NCBI GenBank assembly: GCA_030649995.1
Contig: JAUSEV010000026.1
Location: 1 to 34,866, forward strand
Direction: 5' to 3'
Length of the DNA: 34,866 nt
From: Candidatus Uhrbacteria bacterium
Lineage (GTDB): Bacteria; Patescibacteriota; Patescibacteriia; 2-12-FULL-60-25
In this document: piece after piece, positions 14,288 through 34,015 of the stretch
Layout: every line of letters starts with the position of its first letter
Position numbering within the stretch: the first letter of the stretch is position 1
The notes under the pieces: generated by a model
What the model was told of the DNA's origin: nothing
Seen by the model: only the letters and a program-made list of their open reading frames with translations
Databases searched by the model: none
Translations under genes and position numbers: made by a program

Positions 14288-14328
14288 AAAAAGCCAACGC
14301 GCAAGAGGTGCACCAGTCAATGCCCAAG

Positions 14329-14369
14329 TGAATGAGACAAACTCTAGCTATCGTCAAAGTTTGTCTCAT
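14329..14369 (+). repeat. 41-nt hairpin repeat, copy 1, upstream of the Cas2-like gene
   Basis: Perfect arms ATGAGACAAACT (14332-14343) and AGTTTGTCTCAT (14358-14369) flank a 14-nt loop. In this copy the arms extend to 14 bp (GAATG.../...CATTC). The 41 nt are identical, loop included, to 14980-15020. The right arm lies where the -35 of the downstream promoter would be, so binding here could block transcription of the gene. Confidence 0.95.
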
Positions 14370-14383
14370 TCCATGTTTGTCGG

Positions 14384-14395
14384 TATGATGGATGC
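14384..14395 (+). promoter_or_regulatory. -10 box and leaderless start of the Cas2-like gene
   Basis: TATGAT (14384-14389) is followed by 6 bases and the ATG at 14396. The hairpin repeat ends 14 bases before the box. No Shine-Dalgarno is possible in so short a leader. Confidence 0.6.
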
Positions 14396-14986
14396 ATGGC
14401 TATGGTCAAAGACATTTCCAACGAAGATCGGATAAAAAGAGGTGAAGTGGTCAAGATGATTCTTTTGGCGGTGGGTGTCAGCGGTGTTCTCGTTGTCGGT
14501 GCCGTGTGCCCGGGTCTTTTTCAGCTCGTCAAAATCGGTCGGCGTTCGTTAAAAGAGAGCTCGTTCCGACGAGTCGTTTATCGTTTGGATAAAAAGGGAT
14601 GGTTGGTTTTACGAGATACTGGGCGTGGCTACCGCATCGATCTCACGTCTCGCGGCAGAGCCGAATTACAAGCGTACGAGCTTGGTCAAAAGGCCATACA
14701 AATTCCAAAACGCTGGGATCAAAAGTGGCGCGTGTTGGTTTTTGATATTCCGGAAACCCGCAGGCATGTGAGAGAAAAATTACGCCACGTCCTCAAAACA
14801 TGGGGCTTTTATCGTCTTCAAGACAGCGTGTGGGTTCACCCATACGAATGTTCTACGGTGTTGGAGCTTTTGCGGACAAAGTACGGAATTCGTCATGAAG
14901 CCTTATACCTTTTGGTTGAACACTTGGATCAAGATCATTGGTTGCGTAAGCATTTTTATCTGGTGTCACCAAAGAAAAATGAATGA
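14396..14986 (+). CDS. PaaX-like / Cas2-like protein with N-terminal hydrophobic segment
   Basis: A 196-residue protein. Residues about 18-45 are hydrophobic and end in CPGLFQLVK. A winged-helix-like stretch follows (FRRVVYRLDKKGWL, then RGYRIDLTSRGRAEL, 58-91). Residues 108-190 form a Cas2-like ferredoxin fold as in the PaaX middle domain: WRVLVFDIPE with D117 at the Cas2 catalytic position, and GFYRLQDSVWVHP matching the Cas2 strand-4 signature. There are no cas1 or CRISPR repeats nearby, so it is not a CRISPR adaptation gene in context. Its last two sense codons and stop lie inside the second hairpin repeat. A DNA-binding regulator or a nuclease are both possible. Confidence 0.85.
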   Translation: MAMVKDISNEDRIKRGEVVKMILLAVGVSGVLVVGAVCPGLFQLVKIGRRSLKESSFRRVVYRLDKKGWLVLRDTGRGYRIDLTSRGRAELQAYELGQKAIQIPKRWDQKWRVLVFDIPETRRHVREKLRHVLKTWGFYRLQDSVWVHPYECSTVLELLRTKYGIRHEALYLLVEHLDQDHWLRKHFYLVSPKKNE

Positions 14987-15020
14987 GACAAACTCTAGCT
15001 ATCGTCAAAGTTTGTCTCAT
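14980..15020 (+). repeat. 41-nt hairpin repeat, copy 2, overlapping the Cas2-like stop codon
   Basis: Identical over 41 nt to 14329-14369 and in the same orientation. GAATGA within it supplies the last Glu codon and the TGA stop of the Cas2-like gene. The two copies start 651 bp apart and contain essentially only that gene and its promoter. Confidence 0.95.
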
Positions 15021-28716: not shown

Positions 28717-29676
28717 TTAGCGATCCAAGAAAACGCCGAGGGGACCATCCACGTAAACGAATGATCTTAATTTGGCATAAGGCATTTCGACATGAGGTAT
28801 GCCGTTGCCATGACCGGTGATTTCATAGTCTTGATAGACACTCATCATGGATTTAGGTGTCAGATAAAACGTGTTGATATGCATACCTGGAATCAATGGC
28901 TCATTTTTTTTGAGCGCCTCCTCGAAGCCGCTAAATAATGAACGCTGAAATGGGTTTTGATCTAAGAGCGCTTGCTTTTCGTAACGGAAAAAATTTTGTA
29001 GCTGGTCAGGTTTAAAGAGGTCATCGAACGTAAGTATCTTTCCGGTTTTTACATCAAACGAGAGAACAGACGTCCAATAGATTGGATGCGCGCCGCCGAA
29101 TTCGTTTTGCAGGTCGAATCGCAGGCTTAACAAATTTTTTTCATTTAAGGAAACAGATGTTTTAAGGATGTGGAACCAACTATGGTGGTAATAGGGAGGG
29201 TGTTTATACGTGGGAATTTCGAGCGCGATTCTTTCTTTGAGTTCCTTTGAACATTGTTTTGCATAGGCTGCCACAGCTTCTGCGACAGAAGGAGCATAAA
29301 TTTTTTCATCATCATGTAGGAATGTTTCCTTTACGGTCTGTTCGATTTTTTTATTGATGCGATTCATGATATCTGCATCGGCACCGCTAAGAATTTGAGG
29401 GTATGTGACCTCGCCCACACATTCGATATTTTGGTTGATGGATCGGGTGGTGGTTACAGAGACGTATTCAAGTTGAACACCGAGCTTGACTTCTCCTTCA
29501 TTCTTCATTTTATCCACCCATTTTTTGTTGCTTTCCATCACTTCTTTTGAAGTAGTCTCTTCACGATACCAAGTCTGCGGATACCAAGGAGATGCAATAA
29601 AAATTCCCCACCCAATGAACAGGATACCGATTCCAAGAGCAACGCCGATCCCTATTTTGACCAGTCTCTTTATCAT
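28717..29676 (-). CDS. DUF3298 (RsiV-like) domain protein, membrane-anchored
   Basis: A 319-residue protein with an N-terminal anchor (about 8-30, IGIGVALGIGILFIGWGIFI) and an exported domain. LRFDLQNEFGGAHPIYWTSVLSFDVKTGKILTFDDLF (about 188-224) is the DUF3298 signature, and the final YQDYEITGHGNGIPHVEMPYAKLRSFV matches its closing strands. A preceding DUF4163-like region is likely (about 60-180). In RsiV this fold binds lysozyme and controls a sigma factor; no cytoplasmic anti-sigma segment exists here, so the role is open. It overlaps the exosortase gene by ATGA and is the third gene of that operon. Confidence 0.88.
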   Translation of the reverse strand: MIKRLVKIGIGVALGIGILFIGWGIFIASPWYPQTWYREETTSKEVMESNKKWVDKMKNEGEVKLGVQLEYVSVTTTRSINQNIECVGEVTYPQILSGADADIMNRINKKIEQTVKETFLHDDEKIYAPSVAEAVAAYAKQCSKELKERIALEIPTYKHPPYYHHSWFHILKTSVSLNEKNLLSLRFDLQNEFGGAHPIYWTSVLSFDVKTGKILTFDDLFKPDQLQNFFRYEKQALLDQNPFQRSLFSGFEEALKKNEPLIPGMHINTFYLTPKSMMSVYQDYEITGHGNGIPHVEMPYAKLRSFVYVDGPLGVFLDR

Positions 29677-31124
29677 AAAGTAAAAACGTTATTTATTTTC
29701 TTTACCAATTCTAGAATTTCAGGGTTCTGTGCATCGGCTTGATCGTTCAACCCTATTTCTATCAGTGTCCATGCCGTATCCGGATGGAGGATGCCGGCCC
29801 AAACGCGTTCTGAATAATCACTGATAGTTTTATTCTGACTCGCAAACCAATAGAGCACCGTGCCTCGAGGATCAAGGCGCACCTGTCTGACTTTCATACT
29901 CGAATCAGAGAGTTGTAACAGTTCTGAACGGCTGATCTGGTAGCCTAAACCTCGTAAACAAACTTCGGGATTGTGATGCGTACGCCAAGATTTGCTGGAA
30001 ACGAATAATAATGAAAAAGGCATGCCCGTTGCGGTTTTGCCGTCATATTTTTTTGTAAAAAGCACCTCGCGATTTTGGAAAAAACGTTTTTCAGGTTCGG
30101 TTAAGGGAATCTCTTTGAGAGAAACATTTTGAATGTCAAGCGCGAATGTCACATCATTGGAGGGAGACGCGACGGAAGATTGCGACACTCGGCTGAAAGT
30201 CAGCACAGCATCCAAAAAAAGAAAACACAAGAGAAAAATTATAATAACCCATCGCATATTTTTCATATCCTTTGTTTGAGATGTTGATGTTGATGGTACA
30301 GATAGGGGAGAAGCAAGAAATTTCTTTGTCAAAAACCATGCCAAGCACGCGCTCGCTACAAAGCCACCAACCCCCAAGGCCACATGCAGACTGTTTCCTG
30401 CCGCGGGTAATTGTAAGACGTTGTAAATATAGACAAGGCTAAAGACTCGCCAGATGTTAAAAAATAATAAGGAAGCAAAAAAGATCAGACTCACGAGCGC
30501 CGTGCGGCAAGAAAAAGATATACGTTGAAAGAAAAACAGCGCGCACAAAAATAACGCGCCGGTATAAATGCTTTTGACACCGCTGCATGGCAGATCAACC
30601 ACGCTCGCGCTGTTTTCCGTTAGAATCACCGTGGAATCGGAAATGCTGGAAATGCCCATCCAATGCATGAGAGCACTGACGATATTTGCCGTCATGAGCC
30701 GCACCGGAAATCCCAAGAATGTTTGGATGTGTTCGATGAATGGCAGAGTCAGGGTGACGATGATCGCTAAAAATACCCCACGCATCCACAGCTTTTCTTC
30801 AAGATAAAAACCGAGTAAGGAATAACCTCCCAAGAGAAAAGACGCGGCTCCGATGATCTGATAATGAAAAAAGATCGTATTCAAAAGATCAATCGCGAGG
30901 AATACGAGAAGACCGATTAAGGCTTTTTTTGAATAGGTATAGCGGAGAGAGACGAAACCTTGTTTTCGATACTGCCATCCGAGGAGCAGAAGAGCTGCGA
31001 GGAGCAGAAGAAAAAACGCGATGCCGTACTCCATGAATCCGTCTCCGGTGAAGAGACGGAAAATCCAAACCATGCTCCCGCGAAAATAGAGAAAAAAGAG
31101 GAAAACAATTATCAGAGAACGCAC
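29673..31124 (-). CDS. Exosortase fused to an EpsI-like domain
   Basis: A 483-residue transpeptidase-type membrane enzyme. The first 270 residues form about 8 membrane helices with the exosortase catalytic set: C180 in DLPCSGVKSIYTG, R226 in NIWRVFSLV and H247 in LHVALGVGG. Another helix (about 291-312) is followed by an EpsI-like exported domain with WRTHHNPEVCLRGLGYQI (C389). Exosortases cleave PEP-CTERM-type tails, and the neighbouring protein at 31131 ends in one, so the two form an enzyme-substrate pair. GTG at 31124 is used as start, 6 bases after the substrate gene's stop. Nearest described analogues by architecture are single-substrate types such as XrtN or XrtK; assignment is not settled. 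Confidence 0.92.
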   Translation of the reverse strand: MRSLIIVFLFFLYFRGSMVWIFRLFTGDGFMEYGIAFFLLLLAALLLLGWQYRKQGFVSLRYTYSKKALIGLLVFLAIDLLNTIFFHYQIIGAASFLLGGYSLLGFYLEEKLWMRGVFLAIIVTLTLPFIEHIQTFLGFPVRLMTANIVSALMHWMGISSISDSTVILTENSASVVDLPCSGVKSIYTGALFLCALFFFQRISFSCRTALVSLIFFASLLFFNIWRVFSLVYIYNVLQLPAAGNSLHVALGVGGFVASACLAWFLTKKFLASPLSVPSTSTSQTKDMKNMRWVIIIFLLCFLFLDAVLTFSRVSQSSVASPSNDVTFALDIQNVSLKEIPLTEPEKRFFQNREVLFTKKYDGKTATGMPFSLLFVSSKSWRTHHNPEVCLRGLGYQISRSELLQLSDSSMKVRQVRLDPRGTVLYWFASQNKTISDYSERVWAGILHPDTAWTLIEIGLNDQADAQNPEILELVKKINNVFTL

Positions 31125-31130
31125 AAACGA

Positions 31131-34004
31131 TCAACGCACAAATTTTAACAGGCGATGACGATAGAAAAAGAGGAGGAGCATCACACCTACAATCATCAAG
31201 AGCCATTCTTCCGGTTCTGGGACTGCGCCAATTGTGAGAGCGTTTGCTCCCATGGGATTTGCGAGCGGCGCTACGCCAGTATCAAAATCAGCCTGAAAAC
31301 GATCATTCTGTTTCTTGGCTTGTTCGAGTTGACTTTTTTGCCAATCGTTCACGAGAGCGATGAAGGAGGAATACGGCGAGACGATTGAGGCGTCTGTCGC
31401 GATTTTGTGAATTTCATCCACCGATATGCTTGTAAAGGTGAGATAACGGATGAAGACTCCGGCAGCCACTTTTCCGATGTCGTCATCAGGACGAAGCCTC
31501 GCTAGTTTAAGAGCGGGAAAAAGATTTGTTTCTGTTGCCGAACGTTTCGACACAAACCATGTTCCTTGTTCATCAACTCCGATGATGATGGAGTCTGAAA
31601 AAGTTTGATTGGCCATGAGTTCAAGCTGTTTATCCTTCAGCAATTTTTTGATCGCCAGTTGCCGTAGCGCTTCTTTTGGAGAGGCAAACACGCCACCGCC
31701 GCTCATGGTGATTTGATACGTCAGATCATCACGATAAGCCGGAAACACACCGCTTGGATGAATGAGATATAGAGGAAATTGTCCCTGTAATCGGAAGGAA
31801 GTCTCTTTTTTTATGTCATCAAAACTGCTATCATCAGTCACCATCAAGGTGACATCATATTCCGGCGGTAATGATTGGAGCGCTTTGAGACGATTGGTTT
31901 TGCCGAAGGGGATCACGGTTAAACCTTTTTGCAAAATCTCTTCGGTCAACGGAATTTTTTCGCTCAACGCATCGTTAAAGTAGTAGAGATCAACCGTATT
32001 TTGCGCTCCGAGCAAGTCTTTGAGGGGAAAGTGTTCTTTGAGATATTTTTGCCAGTCCATACCAGCGTTGCTCCCAGACACATCCAAGAGGATGGCGATT
32101 TTGGTTTGTGCGGGCAATACATTTCCAAAACGAGTTGTGCAATTATAACTTTCTTTAATCAATGGGTTCACGACATGAGGGAGGTAGAGGATGTAATTAA
32201 AGTCGCTGTATGCTTGATTCATCATCACGGGTATGTGAAGGATATCCGTGGGACAATCGGTTTTTGGAGAACCGAAGAGCGTTCCTTCCGTGTAGGCCAC
32301 AGGCTGTCCGTTGAGAATATGGGAGCGTTTTGTTTTTTGATCGCTAAATACATTGCGCATTTCGCCAAAGGCGGGGAGTGGGATACCGGCAGACAGATCA
32401 GAAACCACATACTCAAATTTTACGCGTTGATTTTTGTCTTGCGGTCTTTTGGGTAACCAGTCAGCGAATTTTGCCGGAATAGGAAACACTCGGAGCTTAT
32501 ATTGACGCGGACCAATCTGTTCCAAAAGAGCAGGGTCAACTCTCTCCCGTACTTGATTTTCATATGTTCGCCGAGCCGCTCCTTTTGGCGCGATCACGCC
32601 GGGATATTCTAAGTCCGGGCCAAGCCATAAACCGGTAACGACCGATCCTTCCGGCAAGGAAAATTCATAATAGACTTCCTGCATTTGATCGGAAGTATTT
32701 TCATATTCCTCTTCAAAACTCACCTTTGCCATGAGATTGTTTGACACCATAGCTTTTACTTCTCGCGTGACCACTCGCACTCGTTTTTCTTCTCGATCAA
32801 GCAATCCTGCTTTGAGTTGGTCTCGAGTGTTGGTTGATTTGAGAGCGTCTACGATGTAGGCGCGTTCGCCTTCTTGCATGTGAGCGTCGAACATTTCCTC
32901 ATACTGTTCGCTCGCGTTTTTTACGTCATCATCAAACGTGCCTCGATAAATAAAGGGCGAAGCGACAAAATTAAAAAATTTCTGGAATTTTTCCGCTTGT
33001 GATGGATCGAGACGCAGATGTTTTGTGTAGCCTTCCGAAATGAGATTGCTCGTCGTATCGCCGAGGTAGCGATACTGGGCGAGATAGGCATGACGCAATT
33101 CCTGACGGATGCGTTCTTTTTCTTGTATAAGAGGTTTAGCCAAAGCTTGTTTTTCCGCAAAGGTTTTAGCCTCTCGAATGTCCGCCAGTTGTTTGATGAA
33201 CTGTGTATCGCGCGTTTGCATGGAGAGGCCAACACCAATCACAACATACACGACGGCAAACCCAATCCCCAATCTTCGAGCCAGGAGAGGCGTAGCCATG
33301 TCACGCAAGCGCCCCATGGATTCCTTGAATGATTTATAGTAGAGAATGGTGGCAATAATAGGCGCTGCGAAAAAAAATACCACCTCCATGAAGAAGAATA
33401 GAAGGAAGAACAACAGATAAAAAAGAGCCAAACCCTTTGTCGCGATGAACATTTGCCACATTTCTCCAAAATTCAATCCAGAAATCAATTGATAGAGCAA
33501 GACGATGATGATGGGCAGAAAAAATAAGATGAGGAGTGCTCCATAACCGGCCACGAGCAGAGCGATTTCTTGTGAGAGCGTGTGAAGGATCTGCTTTGCC
33601 TTTGATCCCATTTTTGTTTTCAAAAGGAAGAGGAGAATACCGATCGCGCTCACGATGCCACTCAAAGTCAGGTACCAAAGAATGGGAGTCAGTTGACGGA
33701 TAAAAAGAATGCGTGCGAGCGCGAGCGTGATGAGAGGGATTTCCACGCAAAACAGCAAGGTGGCAAGTTTTTTTGGTTCTTTTCGTAAACGCGTCAATCC
33801 TAGAATGGTGGCTGCCAGAGGGGTCAAGACAAGAATGTAAGCCATGAGAGCCACATTCCAAGGAATGCTTTGCGCATCATCGATAAGCAGATAGATGAGC
33901 GGAATGCTCGCAAGCCCCGCACCGAGTAAGATAATGGCGTTATAGGTCCAAAAAATAACATGAAGAAAAACGCGGTGGGTGAAGAAATTGTAGAGTTTTT
34001 TCAT
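31131..34004 (-). CDS. VIT/VWA-domain membrane protein with C-terminal exosortase sorting signal
   Basis: A 957-residue protein. The N-terminal third holds about 7 membrane helices (to about 275). A charged helical region is followed by a VIT domain (about 405-535; VSFEEEYENTSDQMQEVYYEFSLP is typical) and a von Willebrand A domain with an intact MIDAS start, DVSGS (about 638-642). The C-terminus is a full sorting signal: VPEPEEW, a hydrophobic helix LLMIVGVMLLLFFY and a basic tail RHRLLKFVR. Exosortase substrates of VPEID- or MSEP-CTERM type in other phyla share this layout. Start ATG at 34004; a TTG 6 bases earlier is less likely. First gene of the operon; partner exosortase follows. Confidence 0.92.
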   Translation of the reverse strand: MKKLYNFFTHRVFLHVIFWTYNAIILLGAGLASIPLIYLLIDDAQSIPWNVALMAYILVLTPLAATILGLTRLRKEPKKLATLLFCVEIPLITLALARILFIRQLTPILWYLTLSGIVSAIGILLFLLKTKMGSKAKQILHTLSQEIALLVAGYGALLILFFLPIIIVLLYQLISGLNFGEMWQMFIATKGLALFYLLFFLLFFFMEVVFFFAAPIIATILYYKSFKESMGRLRDMATPLLARRLGIGFAVVYVVIGVGLSMQTRDTQFIKQLADIREAKTFAEKQALAKPLIQEKERIRQELRHAYLAQYRYLGDTTSNLISEGYTKHLRLDPSQAEKFQKFFNFVASPFIYRGTFDDDVKNASEQYEEMFDAHMQEGERAYIVDALKSTNTRDQLKAGLLDREEKRVRVVTREVKAMVSNNLMAKVSFEEEYENTSDQMQEVYYEFSLPEGSVVTGLWLGPDLEYPGVIAPKGAARRTYENQVRERVDPALLEQIGPRQYKLRVFPIPAKFADWLPKRPQDKNQRVKFEYVVSDLSAGIPLPAFGEMRNVFSDQKTKRSHILNGQPVAYTEGTLFGSPKTDCPTDILHIPVMMNQAYSDFNYILYLPHVVNPLIKESYNCTTRFGNVLPAQTKIAILLDVSGSNAGMDWQKYLKEHFPLKDLLGAQNTVDLYYFNDALSEKIPLTEEILQKGLTVIPFGKTNRLKALQSLPPEYDVTLMVTDDSSFDDIKKETSFRLQGQFPLYLIHPSGVFPAYRDDLTYQITMSGGGVFASPKEALRQLAIKKLLKDKQLELMANQTFSDSIIIGVDEQGTWFVSKRSATETNLFPALKLARLRPDDDIGKVAAGVFIRYLTFTSISVDEIHKIATDASIVSPYSSFIALVNDWQKSQLEQAKKQNDRFQADFDTGVAPLANPMGANALTIGAVPEPEEWLLMIVGVMLLLFFYRHRLLKFVR

Positions 34005-34015
34005 AGTCAATACTC

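Follow-up and report, generated by a model that had tools for sequence, protein, structure and literature searches.

The closest described counterparts of the arrangement reported here are the REP/RAYT systems, in which a gene lies between two palindromes that are also dispersed in intergenic DNA; the palindrome is lineage-specific, its palindromy is kept by complementary changes, and the system is often inherited vertically (PMC2817692, PMC8049555, PMC8266576). The RAYTs of gammaproteobacteria are Y1 HUH tyrosine transposases, their flanking REPs are inverted and carry GTAG heads, and classical REPs often exceed 100 copies. In IS200/IS605 elements, a single-gene unit has a subterminal hairpin toward each end. 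Among proteins, PaaX-type regulators (E. coli PaaX, PDB 8a39; Rv0674, 3kfw) join a winged helix to a Cas2-like domain, and CRISPR Cas2 shows the ferredoxin-like fold of that domain. We analyzed a 34,866-nt stretch of DNA from Candidatus Uhrbacteria (hereafter the window) that holds a gene flanked on both sides by one palindrome. As in REP/RAYT systems, further copies of this palindrome are scattered between other genes, and a single gene with a hairpin toward each end is likewise the layout of IS200/IS605. The features of the locus are as follows.

14326..14369, plus strand: upstream palindrome of family A, read from the sequence, with its dyad between 14350 and 14351
14347-14354: central 8-mer of the upstream palindrome, GCTATCGT, with arms ATGAGACAAACT and AGTTTGTCTCAT
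14360..14389, plus strand: candidate promoter, assigned by eye, with TTTGTC at 14360-14365 and TATGAT at 14384-14389 separated by an 18-bp spacer
14396..14986, plus strand: gene for a 196-aa protein with an N-terminal PadR/MarR/PaaX-like winged helix and a C-terminal Cas2-like domain
14977..15020, plus strand: downstream palindrome, in the orientation of the upstream copy, with its dyad between 15001 and 15002

The two palindromes match at 43 of 44 nt, with 41 nt in unbroken identity, and their starts lie 651 bp apart in direct orientation with one ORF between them, in agreement with the earlier note, which had described two same-orientation 41-nt hairpin repeats enclosing a single gene. An exact repeat of 41 nt is not due to chance. 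The perfect arms measure 14 bp in the first copy and 12 bp in the second, and the 14-nt middle is identical. As had been noticed, the downstream copy supplies the stop codon (TGA, 14984-14986, inside the palindrome); the -35-like TTTGTC forms part of the right arm of the upstream copy, and the earlier claim that this copy covers the -35 region is reasonable by eye. The upstream palindrome ends 26 bp before the ATG, and the mRNA, from promoter to the start codon at 14396, would be almost leaderless. The gene neighbors cysS and an 844-aa ORF that has no match in Pfam, and an Rfam search gave no match at the palindrome/gene site. The repeat pair is not unique to this site, as palindromes of the same family occur elsewhere in the genome.

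The window has other features of interest. Two group I introns (Rfam RF00028; 1074-1357 and 2412-2665) lie within the 23S rRNA gene. On the minus strand (29673-34010), a 483-aa exosortase-like membrane protein is encoded beside a 959-aa protein with a PEP-CTERM-like tail (VPEPEEWLLMIVG...R), both recognized by eye, suggesting a possible dedicated protein-sorting pair in a small genome.

The 196-aa protein comprises a winged helix (residues ~10-100) and a Cas2-like domain (~105-187). Its Pfam matches are PaaX_M (72.6 bits, cut-off 24), a weak Cas2 and PaaX. It also passes the NCBIfam cas2 model TIGR01573, which covers only part of the domain (30.4 bits, cut-off 24.5), and matches PADLOC Cas2 models, whereas its score against the full PaaX equivalog TIGR02277 (46.5 bits) is far under the cut-off of 264.55. 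The protein carries a YDI/FDIPE...R...GF.RLQDSVW signature that we take, from motif comparison, to be common to Cas2, an assignment backed by the NCBIfam and PADLOC HMM matches. Residues D117 (of FDIPE), R126, Q142, S144, W146 and P149 are invariant in 82 of 82 sequences. The AlphaFold2 model (pLDDT 82, pTM 0.59) has E. coli PaaX (8a39) as its best Foldseek match in the PDB (E 2.4e-5, TMq 0.50), followed by other PaaX-type proteins and by many Cas2 chains. In VIA-align, PadR/MarR winged helices took up the whole match list; the evidence for the Cas2 half therefore comes from Foldseek, the sequence motifs and the HMM models. The domain order is thus that of PaaX, but the protein is shorter than E. 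coli PaaX (196 versus 316 aa), has no paa operon or phenylacetate catabolic cluster around it and keeps the Cas2-type Asp, where E. coli PaaX aligns LSEGL with FDIPE. The Cas2-like core may be a nuclease, an assumption made from the conserved Asp only; the equivalent Asp in Cas2 is dispensable for spacer integration. In contrast to RAYTs and IS200/IS605 transposases, the protein has no match to the Y1/HUH family (including Pfam 01797) in a Pfam search with E up to 1, nor to the TnpB family, and no cleavage-site motif is known for the element. No relative was found on viral contigs (IMG/VR), and phage families gave no significant match.

To define paired palindromes at other loci, 270 bp at the gene start were aligned to 220 bp at the stop in both orientations, with the 99th percentile of 3090 mispaired controls as the cut-off. 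The set consisted of 80 named homologous loci from Uhrbacteria, Zambryskibacteria, Kaiserbacteria, Nomurabacteria, Taylorbacteria and others, with more added from relatives, giving 104 non-redundant loci. Matched upstream and downstream palindromes were found at 84 of the 104, a rate that applies to close relatives because the loci were picked by similarity score; control windows 1 kb farther out gave no pair above the cut-off (0/80). The earlier note had looked to homologues in related genomes to settle whether the repeats belong with the gene, and most of them do have pairs. In an even sample of the phylum, the family occurs in 92 of 287 genomes with a patchy distribution and up to 11 copies; among the best-scoring 29 usable loci of this sample, 10 exceed the strict cut-off and a matched pair can be recognized by eye in ~20, whereas E. 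coli paaX has no matched flanking pair. The operator duplication raised earlier is rejected as a mere accident, since the pair is conserved across the phylum. The two copies of a pair may lie in direct or inverted orientation, and they showed no head motif, unlike the inverted, GTAG-headed REPs that flank RAYTs. Neighboring genes vary among the homologous loci. Six PaaX_M copies contain an in-frame stop (G113:C1:192325, G258:C1:42144, G258:C1:567655, G079:C1:221170, G310:C8:10027 and G310:C42:15468), indicating decayed gene copies beside intact ones.

A Cas2-like gene between two direct repeats, with matches to NCBIfam and PADLOC Cas2 models, could also be read as a degenerate CRISPR locus, that is, a stray Cas2 beside two CRISPR repeats. 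Cas1 was absent from all 13 genomes searched (the window's genome and 12 other carriers), so a CRISPR role is not credible, and there is no array: the "spacer" is a conserved gene. Across the phylum the pair is dyad-symmetric and its arms follow the winged helix, a domain that is absent from Cas2 and to which the Cas2-like half is fused here. We regard this explanation as having a negligible chance of being correct, and a CRISPR remnant is in practice rejected.

The anatomy of the palindromes was computed over 79 loci, with positions counted outward from the dyad. The center is the most conserved part (1.21, 0.76, 1.75 and 0.48 bits at positions 1-4), with a shared core of approximately C[G/T]RY[A/C]G, seen as CTATAG, CGGTCG and CGATCG, and as CGGCCG in the wider set. 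Positions 5-10 form a spacer with weak self-complementarity in gene-linked copies (0.60-0.79 per position), and the arms (positions about 11-18) are self-complementary (mostly 0.85-0.93) with a locus-specific sequence. Upstream and downstream copies agree at 0.70-0.98 of positions. This profile is more in line with a protein site that is contacted twice in each half than with selection for a full-length hairpin. Spacer self-complementarity is higher in gene-less copies (0.83 and 0.89 in two genomes; n = 12 and 9) than in gene-linked ones (0.67), and a hairpin or cruciform stage in the spread of gene-less copies is possible on these small samples. The hairpin role as RNA or single-stranded DNA suggested in the earlier note is accordingly disfavored for gene-linked copies and may still apply to gene-less ones.

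Covariation between palindromes and protein domains was measured by partial Mantel tests over 64 loci, with the other domain of the same protein as a control that limits, but does not remove, the effect of shared ancestry. The winged helix is the more divergent half (mean distance 0.70 versus 0.45 for the Cas2-like half). With the Cas2-like domain controlled for, arm distance correlates with that of the winged helix (partial r = 0.36, p = 0.001; reverse, -0.10); with the winged helix controlled for, center distance correlates with that of the Cas2-like domain, a small effect (0.19, p = 0.009; reverse, -0.06, p = 0.83). From the matched pairs and this domain-by-domain covariation we strongly infer that the protein binds the palindromes, very probably as a dimer with the Cas2-like core over the center. 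The same data bear on the proposal that the palindromes are ordinary bidirectional terminators or mRNA-stabilizing hairpins that flank the gene by chance. Several gene-less copies do lie <100 bp after stop codons, some with A and T runs beside them, but at most loci the upstream and downstream copies share one sequence including spacer and center, none of which terminators need to share; gene-linked spacers are often unpaired, and the arms covary with the winged-helix domain. This proposal is disfavored and appears improbable.

The window's genome (G000; 1.08 Mb, 99% complete; nearest named relatives, Uhrbacteria MAGs) encodes six PaaX_M/Cas2-like paralogues. Five are clearly paired, with a palindrome just before the gene and another at or after the stop; the sixth (C29, L020) has two palindromes with a common center, one point below the cut. 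The palindromes share the core CAAACT-N5-TATA-N5-AGTTTG, on which paralogue-specific variants are built: GAGACAAACTCTAGC (window), ACATCAAACTCTAGC (C41), TTTCAAACTTTTCC (C17), TTTCAAACTGTGCG (C4) and GGTAACAAACTTATGC (C28). At least 12 single intergenic copies of families A, B and C occur at unrelated sites without the gene, and the C28 family has two additional gene-less pairs. The families into which these gene-less copies fall are those of the paralogues. The earlier note had considered that the 41-mer might be scattered with no link to the gene; the dispersed copies are instead linked to it family by family. Their number is small, ~3 to 10 per family, in contrast to classical REPs. Their flanks look unrelated past the repeat, and several arm extensions are site-specific.

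Individual copies show further detail. One C28-type pair (L043, G000:C9, 150-175 and 463-488) is spaced 313 bp apart and the other (L044, G000:C17, 44574 and 48126) 3.5 kb apart, each in the same orientation; the latter encloses other genes and is possibly a composite or cargo unit. At L039 (G000:C38:37610) and L041 (G000:C6:41214), gene-less palindromes provide the last codons and stop of the upstream ORF, as does the downstream copy in the window. At L036 (G000:C21:97562), L038 (G000:C38:12211) and L046 (G000:C17:150), complementarity extends beyond the family arm with a sequence that differs per site (AAAAACA/TGTTTTT, AGTA/TACT), as if an older hairpin surrounded the copy or the copy had been rendered symmetric at its site.

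The placement of gene-less copies addresses the main and serious rival explanation, a PaaX-type autoregulator with two operators, in which the upstream copy is the promoter-operator, the downstream copy is auxiliary (looping or shielding the locus) and the gene-less copies form a small regulon. In support of it, PaaX has this combination of winged helix and Cas2-like core, the upstream palindrome extends over part of the likely promoter, and two gene-less copies in the window's genome lie in divergent promoters. The clear gene-less copies there, however, fall into ~3-4 convergent, 3 tandem and 2 divergent gaps (the ORF calls are mechanical and some sites ambiguous). Of 10 further sites checked in a Taylorbacteria genome (G337), 9 are free of any such gene for ~2.3 kb in both directions, and the classified copies occupy 4 convergent, 4 tandem and 1 divergent gaps; additional gene-less copies are present in G001. 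Convergent and tandem gaps thus outnumber divergent ones, gene-less copies are not promoter-biased, and their neighbors have no evident common theme. A matched operator directly after the stop would also be unusual, and it is the center, rather than the half-sites, that is most conserved. We consider the autoregulator a real minority prospect.

Comparison with relatives points to both gain and fixation of the element. Two genomes of the same genus (G001 and G002) have the order sigma factor, homologue of a 247-aa ORF, cysS, and lack both the 844-aa gene and the element there; in other relatives, too, no such gene adjoins cysS. The C4 element is absent from the matching place in G001, where another gene lies, and in G002, where there is a short gap. 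Neither the cysS nor the C4 place offered a clean empty site with exact ends, as the neighboring genes differ there too; synteny with relatives is broken around the pgi-linked single copy; and neither target duplications nor near-identical recent gene copies were seen. No two congeneric elements share flanks on both sides, and the gene tree, with moderate branch support, contains genome-specific paralogue groups. The gain of the gene in congeners and the genome-specific clades are left unexplained by the autoregulator. In its favor are loci that are vertically inherited with both copies still matched: both flanks are shared within four Paceibacteria sets (L069/L070/L072/L106/L127; L065/L081/L085/L099/L103; L092/L093/L109/L113; and L102/L118/L082), so the gene itself moves rarely. 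Between species, the palindromes at these fixed positions diverge, yet at most of these loci the upstream and downstream copies still match each other, and such joint change is expected if one protein must recognize both. The element thus appears to be both moving and fixed, depending on lineage, and RAYTs show the same mix of vertical inheritance and palindrome dispersal (PMC2817692, PMC8049555).

The reading that we prefer, for which the case stands about evenly balanced, is a REP/RAYT-like ("REPtron"-like) system in which a Cas2-type protein operates on palindromes and, in addition, represses its own promoter. The two-domain protein would work as a dimer and recognize a single type of palindrome of ~36-40 bp. 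Its winged helices would read the lineage-specific outer arms, at ~11-18 bp from the dyad, and its Cas2-like core the conserved central 6-8 bp. Protein on the upstream copy would cover the promoter and repress the gene. In many Paceibacteria the start codon lies at the outer end of the upstream palindrome, with a -10-like sequence in the right arm, a placement in which bound protein would again cover the promoter; the autoregulator draws on this start-codon position as well. Autorepression by the bound protein is, in our judgment, somewhat favored. Nicking or cutting at the center by the Cas2-like core could then lead, at low frequency, to the copying of palindromes into other sites. The weak link is how binding would give rise to spread: the case for it draws on the copies found away from the gene, the apparent gains in congeners, the conserved Asp and the fixed center, while the low copy numbers, the rare movement of the gene itself and the failure to find a clean empty site count against it. 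Protein-driven spread with nuclease action is tentative, falling a little short of an even prospect. More tentative still is the full picture of a self-propagating palindrome family served by a Cas2-type protein without Cas1, in which the arms pick the target, the core cuts the center and spread is REP-like. The earlier note had offered autoregulation and a minimal REP/IS200-like element as alternatives, and each half finds support: at this locus and in many relatives the upstream copy extends into the likely promoter, as an operator should, and the combination of a palindrome-gene-palindrome unit with gene-less copies at other sites resembles a REP/IS200-type element.

Among open-licence papers, we found none that connects PaaX/Cas2-like genes with palindromes or with Patescibacteria, and a 2025 REP survey mentions neither such genes nor this phylum. 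The protein of the arrangement is not that of a RAYT, its context is not that of PaaX and the Cas1 that accompanies CRISPR Cas2 is missing; if the autoregulator explanation is right, it would be a variant of a PaaX-type regulator.

The family is present in about a third of the sampled genomes of the phylum, at up to 11 copies per ~1-Mb genome, and database models would call these proteins PaaX regulators or Cas2. The matched, coevolving palindromes give the family a concrete DNA target and a testable activity. Even if the proteins are regulators, two domains reading separate parts of a palindrome across a phylum would constitute a natural data set for recognition codes. If spread is protein-driven, the result would be a REP-like system built on unrelated machinery and a lead on roles of Cas2-like proteins, present or past, outside CRISPR; Cas2-like proteins could then mobilize DNA alone, and the REPtron design would have evolved separately from HUH transposases.
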